Positions 1,693 to 23,933 of a stretch of DNA of 54,525 bases are shown piece after piece. The notes beneath the pieces were generated by a model that did no database searches, was not told the origin of the DNA, and saw only the letters and a program-made list of their open reading frames with translations. The position numbers and the translations under genes were made by a program. Position 1 is the first letter of the stretch; every line of letters starts with the position of its first letter. This stretch comes from Polyangium sp. 15x6 (GTDB lineage Bacteria; Myxococcota_A; Polyangia; Polyangiales; Polyangiaceae). Where the stretch lies: contig NZ_JASBQE010000083.1 in assembly GCF_029960785.1 (NCBI RefSeq), positions 1 to 54,525 on the forward strand. The letters run 5' to 3'.

Positions 1693-1704
1693 CGGCACCC
1701 CGTG

Positions 1705-1912
1705 GCTCGCTTGCCCAAGCGACGCTCGGGGCCCTGGTCGGGCGGTTGCTCGCTTGCCCAAGCGACGCTTGTTGCCCTGGTCGGGCGGTTGCTCGCTTGC
1801 CCGAGCGACGCTTGTTGCCCTGGTCGGGCGGTGGCTCGCTTGCCCAAGCGACGCTTGTTGCCCTGGTCGGGCGGTGGCTCGCTTGCCCGAGCGACGCTCG
1901 GAGGGGCGAGAG
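1705..1912. repeat. five-copy 43-bp tandem repeat, each unit with a palindrome
   Basis: Units start at 1705, 1748, 1791, 1834 and 1877, exactly 43 bp apart. Each opens with GCTCGCTTGCCC(A/G)AGCGACGC, in which CGCTTG and CAAGCG form a 6-bp inverted repeat around CC. Units 3 and 5 carry a G in place of the A. The rest of the unit (TTGTTGCCCTGGTCGGGCGG) is nearly identical in copies 2-4, and copy 5 diverges after about 25 bp. The array lies between the convergent ends of the Uma2 gene and a TPR gene. Since 43 is not a multiple of three, it is unlikely to have arisen as coding repeat, although all frames stay open. It may act as a transcript end or protein-binding array. Confidence 0.9.
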
Positions 1913-20567: not shown

Positions 20568-21764
20568 TCAGGCGCCCGCGGTCGCGTCGAGGGCCTGCAC
20601 GAGATCCGCGACCACGTCCTCGGTCTCCTCGATTCCCACCGCGAGCCGCACGAGCCCCGGCGCGATCCCGACCGCCACGAGCTCCTCGGGCCCGAGCTCC
20701 GAATAACTCATGATCGCGGGCTGCTCGATGAGCGTCTCCACGCCCCCGAGGCTCGGCGCGATCCGCGCGAGCTTGCACGCGTCCACCACGCGCCGCGCCC
20801 CGTCCTTGCCGCCGCGGACCACGAACGACACGACGCCGCCGCCGCCCGCGAGGTGCTTCTTCGCGATCGCGTGATCCGGGTGGGATTCGAGCATCGGGTA
20901 ATACACGCGCTCCACGGCCGGGTGCGCTTCGAGGGCGCGCGCGACCGCGAGCGCCGTCTGGTTTTGCCGCGACACGCGCAAGGACAGCGTCTTGATGCCG
21001 CGCCCGATGAGCATCGCCGCGTGCGGATCGGACACGGCGCCGAGCACGTCGCGCGCCTCGTGCACGAGCGAGAGCAGCGACGACGGCCCCGACACGCTCC
21101 CGCCGAGCACGTCGTTGTGCCCGCCGAGGTACTTCGTCGCGCTGTGCACGACGAGGTCGATCCCCACGGCCGAGAACATCGCATTGACGGGCGTGGCGAA
21201 CGTCGCGTCCACGAGCGTCTTCGCCCGCGTCTTCTTGCAGATGTCCGCGAGCCTCTCCACGTCGACGCAGCGCAGGTACGGGTTCGTCGGCATCTCCGTG
21301 ATGACGAGCCGCGTCTTCGGCCCGATCGCGCTCTCGAGCCCGTCGAGGTCTCCCGGCTCGAGCAGCGTGTGCGACACGCCGAGCCGCGACAGCATCTTCA
21401 CCACGAACTGCCGCGTCCTCCTGTACGTGTCGCGGAAGAGCACCACGTCGTCGCCGGCCTTCACGAACGCGAGGATCGTCGTCGTCAGCGCGGCCATGCC
21501 GCTCGGGAAGAGCAGCGCGTCCTCGGTCCCGTCGAGCGCGGCGATGCGCGCCTCGACCTCGCGCACGGTCGGGTTTCCGTAGCGCCCGTAGTCGAGCCGC
21601 CCGGGGTCTGGATCCTCGCCGCGCATGAACCGTTCGAGGTCGTCCGAGTCGGCGAACGTGTACGTCGCGGTGAGGGCGATCGAAGGCGCGAGCGTGTGGT
21701 GCGGGCGATCGACGCGTTCGCCGGCGTGAACGGAGTCCGTGCTGGTCGGGAGGGCGGTTTTCAT
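20568..21764 (-). CDS. cystathionine gamma-synthase-family PLP enzyme
   Basis: 398 residues. Cys/Met-metabolism PLP enzyme (cystathionine gamma-synthase, O-acylhomoserine sulfhydrylase or a lyase of the same fold). The PLP lysine is Lys211 in VVHSATKYLGGHND. YGRYGNPTVREVEARIAALDGTEDALLFPSGMAA is the typical N-terminal block, and SLGGVETLIEQPAIMSY the C-terminal one. The exact reaction cannot be decided from motifs alone. ATG 21764 (MKTALPTSTDSVHAGE) fits the family start, but the preceding bases are pyrimidine-rich on the coding strand and lack a Shine-Dalgarno. It is divergent from the sulfite/nitrite reductase across the 43-bp dyad array, suggesting a shared sulfur-regulated control region. 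Confidence 0.88.
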   Translation of the reverse strand: MKTALPTSTDSVHAGERVDRPHHTLAPSIALTATYTFADSDDLERFMRGEDPDPGRLDYGRYGNPTVREVEARIAALDGTEDALLFPSGMAALTTTILAFVKAGDDVVLFRDTYRRTRQFVVKMLSRLGVSHTLLEPGDLDGLESAIGPKTRLVITEMPTNPYLRCVDVERLADICKKTRAKTLVDATFATPVNAMFSAVGIDLVVHSATKYLGGHNDVLGGSVSGPSSLLSLVHEARDVLGAVSDPHAAMLIGRGIKTLSLRVSRQNQTALAVARALEAHPAVERVYYPMLESHPDHAIAKKHLAGGGGVVSFVVRGGKDGARRVVDACKLARIAPSLGGVETLIEQPAIMSYSELGPEELVAVGIAPGLVRLAVGIEETEDVVADLVQALDATAGA

Positions 21765-21870: not shown

Positions 21871-22228
21871 CCTGCGCCCCGCCGATCCCCCTTCCCGGAC
21901 GCCTGCATGCGCATGGGACCGGCGCAGAGATACCTCCTCCCTGGGACGCGCCCCCTCCTGCGCTCCGCAGCCATCCATCCGACCTTCCCCGCGAGCACCT
22001 CCGCGCCGCGCAGACATCCTTCCGGGCATGCCCGCGACCGCTTCTGACTTGCGCAGACCGTGCCCGCTCCCACCCGCGCGCATCTCTGCGCTGCGCAGAG
22101 GCCCTCCAGGCCGTGATCTGGACCCCTTCTGATCACCGCAGACGCCTCTCCCGCCTCGCCGGGGCGTCTTTCTGCGTGGTTCAGAGGATGTTCCGGCCGT
22201 TCCGGCGGGTGCTTCTGAAGATTGTCAC
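21871..22228. repeat. nine-dyad array (TCTG-N7-CAGA) with 42-43 bp period
   Basis: Fifteen-bp dyads are centred at 21878, 21921, 21964, 22007, 22050, 22092, 22135, 22178 and 22221, so the steps are 43, 43, 43, 43, 42, 43, 43 and 43 bp. The four at 22043, 22085, 22128 and 22171 have perfect TCTG and CAGA arms; the outer ones keep most arm bases. The best copy is a 17-bp perfect palindrome at 22084-22100 (CTCTGCGC-T-GCGCAGAG). Linkers retain faint similarity (CT before each dyad; ATCC or TTCCGG after several). The array fills the space between the divergent cystathionine synthase-family and reductase genes, and its last, weak site abuts the reductase -35 box. Confidence 0.85.
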
Positions 22229-22230
22229 AC

Positions 22231-22258
22231 TTGACGCGTCGGAAAAGTGGGGGATAAA
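22231..22258 (+). promoter_or_regulatory. promoter of the nitrite/sulfite reductase, near-leaderless
   Basis: TTGACG (22231-22236) and GATAAA (22253-22258) are spaced by 16 bp. Transcription would begin around 22265, only a few bases before ATG 22269, and no Shine-Dalgarno is present, so the message is probably leaderless or nearly so. The ninth dyad of the array ends 2 bp upstream of the -35 box. Confidence 0.55.
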
Positions 22259-22268
22259 GTGGGCTGCC

Positions 22269-23933
22269 ATGTCTGACGCACCGTCACGTATGCAGGCCGC
22301 GCTCGACGAGTACGCGGAGAACATTCAGCGGTTCAAGCGGGGGGAGATCACGCCGGACCAGTTTCGCCCGCTTCGCCTGGGGATGGGCGTGTACGCGCAG
22401 CTCGCGCACGTGAAGCACATGCAGCGCATCAAGGTGCCGGGCGGGCGCATGACGGCGGCGCAGCTCGACGTGGTCGCGGAGGTGACGGAGCGCTGGGCGC
22501 TCGGGCTCGCGCACGTCACGACGCGTCAAGACATCCAGCTCCACCACCTCGAGATCGAGGAGACGGTGGAGCTGCAGCGCGTTCTCGCGAAGGCGGACGT
22601 GACCACCGTGGGCGCCTGCGCCGACACGGTGCGCAACGTGACCGCGTCGCACCTCGCGGGCGTCGCCCCGGACGAAGTCTTCGACGTGACGCCGCACGCC
22701 CATGCGATCACGCAGTACTTCCTGTTCCACCCGCACAACCGCAAGCTCCCGCGCAAGTTCAAGATCGGCCTGTCCGGCAGCGCGCGCGACCACGCGCAGA
22801 TCATGATCAACGACCTCGGCCTGCTCGCGCGCGTCACCGACGCAGGCCGCGGCTTCGCGGTGTACGTCGCAGGCGGACTCGGCTCGACGCCGGAGATCGC
22901 GCACCTCTGGCGTGACTTCGTGCCCGAGCGGGACGTGCTCGCCGCGTGCGACGCGGTGATTCGTGTCTTCTGGCGGGACGGCGAGCGCAAGAACCGCAAG
23001 AAGGCGCGCATCAAGTTCCTGCTGCGCAAGCTCGGCGAGGCCGAGTTCATGAAGCGGCTCGACGACGAGCTCGCGAAGATCAAGGCCGAGGAGGGCGCGA
23101 AGGTCGAGGCGGAGCTCGATCGATACCTCGGCGAATACAAGGACGAGGAGGCGCCTCCGCCGGCCCCGGGCGGCGACGCGATCGGCGACGCCGCCTTCGC
23201 GCGCTGGAAGAGGACGAACACGCTTTCGCAAATCCAGCCCGGTTACCGGGTCGTCACGGTAAAACTGCCGCTCGGCGACATCACGGCCGAGCAGATGCGC
23301 AGGCTCGCGTCGCTGTCGCGCGAGCTCGGCAACGGCGAGGTCCGCACCACGAACGCGCAGAACTTCGTGATGCGCTTCGTCCCCGAGGGGAACCTCGTGG
23401 CCTTGCACCGGGCGCTCTCGCAGATCGGCCTCGCCGAGCCCGACGCCGGGCACATCACGGACATCGTGGCCTGCCCCGGCGCCGATTATTGCTCGCTCGC
23501 GATCACGAAGAGCATGGGCGTCGGCGCCCGCGTGCGCGAGCACCTCTCGGAGAGCGGAAACCGCGCCGAGGCCGACGATCTCGTGCAGAAGATCGGCGCC
23601 TTCGACATCAAGATCTCGGGCTGCCCGAACTCGTGCGGCCAGCACCACGTGGCCGACATCGGCATGACCGGGCTCATGGTGAAGGGCAAGGACGGCGTCG
23701 AGCGCCCGCATTATTCGCTGCGCGTCGGCGGCGGCTGCGGCCCGGACGCGAAGATCGGCGACCGCCTCGACGGCCGCGTGCCCGAGGAGGAGACGCCCAA
23801 GGTGATCGCCGCGATCGCGAGGCATTACGTGGCCGAGCGGGCCGAGGGCGAGAGCTTCCGCGAATTCGTGGCGCGCAAGGGCGCGAGCGAGATCGGGCGG
23901 ATCGGATTCGCGGCGGCGACCGACTTGATCTGA
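22269..23933 (+). CDS. nitrite/sulfite reductase (sirohaem, 4Fe-4S)
   Basis: 554 residues. A six-electron assimilatory reductase converting sulfite to sulfide (or nitrite to ammonia), cytosolic. The siroheme/cluster cysteines are Cys402 and Cys408 (CPGADYC) and Cys452 and Cys456 (GCPNSCGQHH). The two pseudo-symmetric ferredoxin-like halves are visible, with MGVYAQLAHVKHMQRIKVPGG in the first and GYRVVTVKLPLGDITAEQMRRL in the second. A charged insert with a long helix (about 255-300) separates them. The pairing with a cystathionine synthase-family gene favours sulfite, but sulfite and nitrite enzymes cannot be separated safely by eye. ATG 22269 fits the family start. Confidence 0.88.
   Translation: MSDAPSRMQAALDEYAENIQRFKRGEITPDQFRPLRLGMGVYAQLAHVKHMQRIKVPGGRMTAAQLDVVAEVTERWALGLAHVTTRQDIQLHHLEIEETVELQRVLAKADVTTVGACADTVRNVTASHLAGVAPDEVFDVTPHAHAITQYFLFHPHNRKLPRKFKIGLSGSARDHAQIMINDLGLLARVTDAGRGFAVYVAGGLGSTPEIAHLWRDFVPERDVLAACDAVIRVFWRDGERKNRKKARIKFLLRKLGEAEFMKRLDDELAKIKAEEGAKVEAELDRYLGEYKDEEAPPPAPGGDAIGDAAFARWKRTNTLSQIQPGYRVVTVKLPLGDITAEQMRRLASLSRELGNGEVRTTNAQNFVMRFVPEGNLVALHRALSQIGLAEPDAGHITDIVACPGADYCSLAITKSMGVGARVREHLSESGNRAEADDLVQKIGAFDIKISGCPNSCGQHHVADIGMTGLMVKGKDGVERPHYSLRVGGGCGPDAKIGDRLDGRVPEEETPKVIAAIARHYVAERAEGESFREFVARKGASEIGRIGFAAATDLI

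Follow-up and report, generated by a model that had tools for sequence, protein, structure and literature searches.

The gene for the nitrite/sulfite reductase of Polyangium sp. 15x6 (SiR) is preceded by a series of TCTG-N7-CAGA-like dyads that recur at a nearly constant step, and the question raised by this locus is whether such an array serves the adjoining sulfur genes or belongs to something more general. The initial annotation of the stretch of DNA analysed here (54,525 nucleotides, hereafter the window) leaned towards a polymerising or looping regulator dedicated to these genes. The comparison described below shows that the SiR array is one of a set of dispersed intergenic Polyangium arrays that share a 43-bp period, comprise about 6-9 units and differ in unit sequence; the occurrence of one 43-base step across unrelated sequences suggests a DNA scaffold or a process of copying that has yet to be described, and not a switch for sulfur genes. 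Bacterial minisatellites are usually viewed as local accidents with arbitrary unit length. The Polyangium arrays combine a prevailing non-coding period with a steady number of units (in one family), dyads at the half-period (in another) and a fixed site at which the unit has been replaced, and thus raise the testable question of whether a protein lattice or a copying machine measures out the 43 bp.

All nine dyads are found at the positions given by the initial annotation, with steps between centres of 43, 43, 43, 43, 42, 43, 43 and 43 bp (Table 1). The matches to the TCTG/CAGA arms number 6, 6, 6, 7, 8, 8, 8, 8 and 4 (maximum 8) for sites 1 to 9; sites 5-8 are perfect, the outer sites are decayed, site 9 retains the left arm only and positions 22084-22100 form a 17-bp palindrome, CTCTGCGCTGCGCAGAG, all in keeping with the original description. 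The assignment of the flanking genes to sulfur metabolism is borne out by Pfam, and the last site does touch the -35 region of the reductase, with TTGACG beginning two bases past its end; the start of SiR, which simple GC3 gene calls over-extend, was taken from its orthologues. In the 504-bp intergenic region, identity at lag 43 holds at 200 of 461 positions, against 132 +/- 9.8 in dinucleotide shuffles (z 7.0), a fraction equalled in none of 1000 shuffles at any lag from 20 to 120. The dyad chain scores 24, the maximum being 5 among 300 dinucleotide shuffles and the runner-up anywhere in the window also scoring 5. The linkers are not featureless, as the exact mid-unit point of the array carries a palindrome that ranks first among 71 centres, and the helical phasing of the sites that had been proposed (43 bp is about four helical turns) is reinforced by these mid-unit palindromes. 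A blast search of the array region against its own genome returned one real match and 40 at chance level, and a search against plasmids one short match, in Nonomuraea.

Table 1. Coordinates in the window of the two 43-bp arrays, their component sites and the neighbours of the SiR array.
Feature	Position	Strand	Remarks
43-bp dyad array upstream of SiR	21871..22228	.	nine sites, of which the detector chains eight; the ninth is half retained
Four perfect TCTG-N7-CAGA dyads	22043..22185	.	22043-22057, 22085-22099, 22128-22142, 22171-22185
Mid-unit palindrome CGGGCATGCCCG	22023..22034	.	centre 21.5 bp from dyad centre 22007
Mid-unit palindrome CCAG-N8-CTGG	22106..22121	.	centre 21.5 bp from dyad centre 22092
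Promoter-like TTGACG and GATAAA	22231..22258	+	22231-22236 and 22253-22258; boxes read by eye
Nitrite/sulfite reductase gene SiR (NIR_SIR, PF01077/PF03460)	22269..23933	+	right neighbour
Cys/Met metabolism PLP enzyme gene (Cys_Met_Meta_PP, PF01053)	20568..21764	-	left neighbour
Second 43-bp array	1702..1898	.	4.6 units; 16-bp palindrome TCGCTTGCCCAAGCGA, unrelated to the TCTG dyad

Six genomes belong by classification to the genus of the window (G000-G005, G000 being the window genome), and their SiR orthologues are 91-96% identical. The array is present at the same place upstream of SiR in G001, where it is found letter for letter in NZ_SSMQ01000017.1 of Polyangium fumosum DSM 14668, and in G005, where the step that measures 42 bp in the window array is 43 bp, judging by register. 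It is absent upstream of SiR in G002, G003 and G004, which still have the promoter sequence, similar TTGACG/GATAAA boxes being found in all six species irrespective of the array. No two of the three carriers have the same left neighbour: it is the Cys/Met enzyme only in the window genome, its place being taken in G001 by a gene without a Pfam match and in G005 by the end of a kinase gene (read by eye, the kinase having been assigned in the window). By the four-fold sites of SiR, the closest relative of G001 is G002 and that of G000 is G003. A single short array-less SiR intergenic sequence is common to G002, G003 and G004 (L014, L016 and L017), though these are not mutual closest relatives, and the pattern suggests repeated loss of the array or exchange of the allele.

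Between the carriers, the dyads and the linkers diverge at different rates. For units 3-8 (units 1, 2 and 9 were dropped) in the pairs G000-G001, G000-G005 and G001-G005, the arms differ at 3/48, 5/48 and 6/48 positions (6-12%) and the linkers at 30/168, 49/168 and 64/168 (18-38%), with 9/42, 15/42 and 13/42 differences in the 7-bp spacers and 44/298, 64/281 and 56/288 at the four-fold sites of SiR. Units 1-2 alone give 3/16, 9/16 and 7/16 for the arms and 15/56, 39/56 and 36/56 for the linkers. The arms of the perfect dyads are kept in the two other species with the exceptions of TCCG at site 6 (G005) and CCGA at site 8 (G001). When the arm mask was slid over the 43 phases, the true phase had the second lowest, lowest and lowest divergence in the respective pairs, and the lowest of the 43 when the pairs were pooled. 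On these counts, which are pairwise among three sequences and hence not independent, the TCTG/CAGA arms at SiR look constrained, the linkers do not and the 7-bp spacers also drift, so that the selection on the dyads and the greater divergence of the linkers posited by the initial annotation find support. That annotation would have taken a lack of conservation in relatives, or equal decay of dyads and linkers, as signs of a neutral duplication; two relatives keep the array, with arms that decay less, and three are without it.

The window holds two lag-43 loci, the second of which lies between convergent genes (a Uma2-family gene and a TPR gene) and has a counterpart in G005 that is 82% identical. 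In 800 kb of G002, scanned at lags 19-110 without multiples of three for stretches of 172 bp with 50% identity or more, lag 43 accounts for 11 loci, all intergenic, and lag 86 for 8, while the other lags have a mean of 0.33 (from which lags 22, 64, 65, 85, 87, 107 and 108 were also excluded) and a maximum of 2. This density, about 14 per Mb, extrapolates to about 180 loci per genome if the sample is typical. Thirteen Polyangium arrays all lie between genes, six of them between divergent, five between tandem and two between convergent genes according to simple GC3 gene calls. Whether the dyads recur near sulfur or nitrogen genes in relatives had been raised as a check; the arrays do recur, but beside many kinds of genes. 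Elsewhere, three genomes show no excess at lag 43, with 1 locus in 400 kb for G100 and none in 200 kb for either G072 or G012; G119 has two lag-43 loci in 200 kb beside a ladder near 23, 34, 44, 46, 67-68 and 91, and G243 two in 200 kb among other periods. In the Lujinxingia-like G119 (C2:200001-400000, L225-L234), the recurring tandem periods are near multiples of 11.3 bp. A literature search, which took in a minority of the subscription papers, found no description of such arrays in Polyangium.

Within Polyangium, TCTG-type arrays occur at three loci. The second locus, unrelated to SiR, was picked out by clustering in a search that allowed three mismatches, in which the dyad count is only slightly above that of the control in G000 (24 vs 15) and G001 (22 vs 15), equals it in G002, G003 and G004 and falls below it in G005 (10 vs 11). 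Five of the six species carry the same dyad array there: G000, G001, G002 and G004 have 7-8 units, and G005 has just two dyads (in G001 and G005 the locus was recognised by eye from a common promoter sequence). The locus adjoins an 87-aa gene without a Pfam match, called in G000, G002 and G004, and no Pfam family was matched by its flanking genes. The third TCTG array, found in G002 only, is situated between the chorismate synthase gene (aroC) and a shikimate kinase/dehydroquinate synthase gene; seven of its eight units are perfect, and it is 70% identical to the window array over 143 bp (E 4e-10). The exact dyad-pair pattern was found in 10 of 377 Myxococcota genomes (6 genera) and the reversed control pattern in four (G113, G243, G260, G367), and the presence of the dyad outside Polyangium may be due to chance. 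A triple dyad pattern searched over genome contigs gave 70 stretches, many with a 42-bp step, which were taken as coding repeats from their span alone, examination being confined to Polyangium fumosum and Lujinxingia vulgaris; the arrays of G138 are found letter for letter in Lujinxingia vulgaris TMQ2. The Lujinxingia arrays (L077, L079, L080, L081, L082) carry different palindromes (TCTGTT...AACAGA, TTTACCTGAGTAAA) on one conserved linker.

The extent to which unit sequences turn over is seen in a dispersed family and at a single fixed site. With 40 candidates scored per genome, the dispersed family gave 25 matches at 21 places in G002, 15 matches in G001, three each in G003, G004 and G005 and two in G000; with six candidates scored per genome, it was found in 7 of 108 genomes of the family-level group, namely the six of Polyangium and one weakly matching genome. 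Five species have it upstream of one gene, and three have it at a second site. The units within one array carry common species-specific changes, and there are seven units in 10/10 arrays across species (the comparison being between species, not strains of one species, and six edge units without a dyad having been dropped from the count). Two orthologous arrays in G000 and G004 (L279:1525-1829 and, on the reverse strand, L280:1508-1812) have steps of 44, 43, 44, 43, 44 and 43 bp and the main dyad in alternate units only, forming a higher-order repeat of 87 bp. Downstream of aroC, clear 43-bp arrays are found in G002, G001, G004 and G005 (lag-43 identity 0.76, 0.72, 0.67 and 0.44, respectively), together with about 2.5 copies with a 42/43 step in G003 and none in G000. 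The four clear arrays represent three unrelated unit families: G004 and G005 share one (about 74% identical), and the units of G001 and G002 are related neither to each other nor to those of G004 and G005, the aroC genes of G001 and G002 being 96% identical. The unit is thus replaceable at one site between sister species, with location and period kept.

A significant palindrome per unit is present in about half of the arrays tested: in a column-permutation test, 6 of 11 Polyangium arrays have one at p <= 0.025, and the four aroC arrays give p 0.002, 0.06, 0.14 and 0.55. The window array gives p 0.23 because its 42-bp step breaks the register. For the mid-unit palindromes, the best palindrome centre of each array was located and the point half a period away was ranked among 71 (arrays L078, L079, L081, L082, L084 and L088-L090 fall outside this test). 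Among TCTG-type arrays, the ranks are 1, 4 and 2 at SiR (three species), 10 at aroC, 6, 10, 1 and 3 at the second locus (four species), 2, 2, 1 and 3 in Lujinxingia, 1 in G243 and 2 in G166. Among 10 non-TCTG arrays, the mid-unit palindrome ranks first in two and beyond 20 in eight. In the dispersed family, the top two of 86 palindrome centres lie 21.5 bp from each other.

The statement of the initial annotation that no described regulator has this arrangement fails as far as architecture is concerned. The F-plasmid centromere sopC, to which ParB binds, is described as a row of twelve 43-bp repeats that contain a 16-bp inverted repeat (PMC9178275, PMC6238139). In the sopC sequence, lag 43 is by far the strongest within 8 kb around, and a second palindrome is found at mid-unit (rank 3 of 71). 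Because sopC matches the SiR array in period and half-period palindrome, each having 43-bp tandem units with one inverted repeat (about 16 bp in sopC) and one mid-unit palindrome, the architecture has a close known analogue. The Polyangium arrays, in contrast, are many and chromosomal, with unrelated dyads and about 6-9 units rather than twelve, and no par genes are among the annotated immediate neighbours, which at the SiR array are SiR, the Cys/Met enzyme and a protein kinase. A match in period and half-period dyads, with no tested sequence relation beyond the motif, suggests that the length of 43 bp has a geometric basis, one that could extend to ParB-like assemblies generally.

Other repeat systems resemble the Polyangium arrays in part. 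BOX elements of Streptococcus and REP/BIME elements are small intergenic palindromic repeats, modular or tandem. RAYT-driven REP elements were rejected, as the RAYT (Y1) transposase PF01797, present in three of the six genomes, is absent from G002, G003 and G004, all of which bear arrays. For Leptospira interrogans, dispersed non-coding satellite families are described, such as those of 46 bp (PMC6749651). These share with the Polyangium arrays the tandem non-coding arrangement and the scattering of related families over the genome, whereas one period over unrelated families, a steady unit number, mid-unit dyads and unit replacement at a fixed site distinguish Polyangium.

The interpretation that we prefer, with a confidence just short of even, is that the arrays form a dispersed, fast-turning-over class of helically phased lattices that a dimeric DNA-binding protein would occupy. 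With their centres 11 bp apart, the two arms would be the half-sites of this putative protein; strong and weak dyads would together place a two-fold site every two helical turns along one face of the DNA, a lattice where dimers might line up as ParB does at sopC, and the likely effect would be local DNA structuring or silencing between genes, with no switching of sulfur genes. We lean towards a lattice because the arms are conserved and the linkers are not, in agreement with the phase control; because lag 43 dominates the non-coding periods in 800 kb of G002; because mid-unit palindromes rank high in 14 TCTG-type arrays and in the dispersed family; because seven units are kept in 10/10 arrays of one family despite sequence turnover; because location and period persist with the unit replaced downstream of aroC; and because sopC has the same period and half-period dyad. 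Against it, sequences that vary from array to array are at odds with recognition by one sequence-specific protein, the palindrome is significant in only 6/11 Polyangium and 1/4 aroC arrays, the non-TCTG mid-unit palindrome lies beyond rank 20 in 8/10, and the SiR array is missing in 3/6 species. More broadly, and as a proposal that we hold tentatively, a genome-wide Polyangium system with a fixed 43-bp ruler may build arrays of about 6-9 units, often with two-fold symmetry, and maintain them at set intergenic sites irrespective of sequence. Behind such a system would stand one of two things: a chromatin-like lattice of protein whose four-turn geometry converges on that of sopC, or an enzyme copying units of 43 bp.

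The main rival, which we consider rather unlikely, holds that the arrays are functionless neutral minisatellites, produced by a lineage-specific 43-bp copying ruler that acts on any sequence by slippage or template switching, perhaps primed by palindromes, with units homogenised by exchange. In its favour are the one period across unrelated unit sequences, the species-wide homogenisation within arrays and the fact that three of six species have lost the SiR array or lack it; it leaves unexplained the constraint on the SiR arms, the seven units in 10/10 arrays and the mid-unit palindromes, and the array at aroC persists at one site after replacement of its unit.

It is improbable that, as first suggested, the array serves as operator for a specialised sulfur or nitrogen regulator that polymerises or forms loops at the promoters of the divergent genes for SiR and the Cys/Met enzyme. 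The array does abut the SiR promoter in all three carrier species and its arms are conserved, but three species keep the promoter without the array, the same dyads stand beside Pfam-less genes and behind aroC, the left neighbour is not conserved and the array class is found at many kinds of genes; the presence and absence of the array at SiR, together with the other loci bearing the same dyad, led us to set this reading aside.

Marginally more doubtful still is an array of RNA or single-strand hairpins, in which transcribed or extruded palindromes would act as structures (CRISPR-like, sponge or attenuator). Predicted RNA folding of the array is slightly better than that of shuffles (z -2.6 on the plus strand, 1/100 as good; z -2.0 on the minus strand, 3/100), which is what the palindromes alone would give. 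No arm covariation was detected within 30 arrays (summed z 1.2 for main dyads and -0.8 for mid-unit dyads), the SiR arms conserve letters rather than pairing, none of eight loci matched Rfam, and the arrays lie at either side of gene ends. Covariation with z about 3 at both dyads of the dispersed family is not specific, because two unrelated centres score higher (5.1 and 4.3). In one G243 array (L083:4650-5008), the change from TCTC...GAGA to TCTG...CAGA between units involves both paired arms (covariation p 0.058). The regular step and partly palindromic repeat are reminiscent of CRISPR, from which the arrays differ in having linkers with a common consensus between units instead of unique spacers, dyads of about 15 bp, and many arrays with differing dyads.

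A chromosomal ParB centromere or accessory parS-type site is the least probable reading, for although the 43-bp period with main and mid-unit dyads is as in sopC and the aroC array adjoins a parS-like site (G002 has three of these in 4 kb), G003, G004 and G005 have just one ParB_N protein apiece, the dyad sequences are many and different, and neither the window nor the scanned 800 kb of G002, which hold 13 lag-43 arrays, contain a parS-like site (up to two mismatches to the parS consensus). The ParB_N matches in G000-G005 number 2, 3, 2, 1, 1 and 1, and only one of them, a strong match, is common to all six; it is at the partner protein that the likeness to sopC ends. Among the sequences scanned, parS-like sites were found only at the aroC cluster, where one is located downstream of aroC in all six Polyangium genomes. 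The three sites of G002 fall within L086:4665-8581, the first of them between the aroC stop codon and the 43-bp array.
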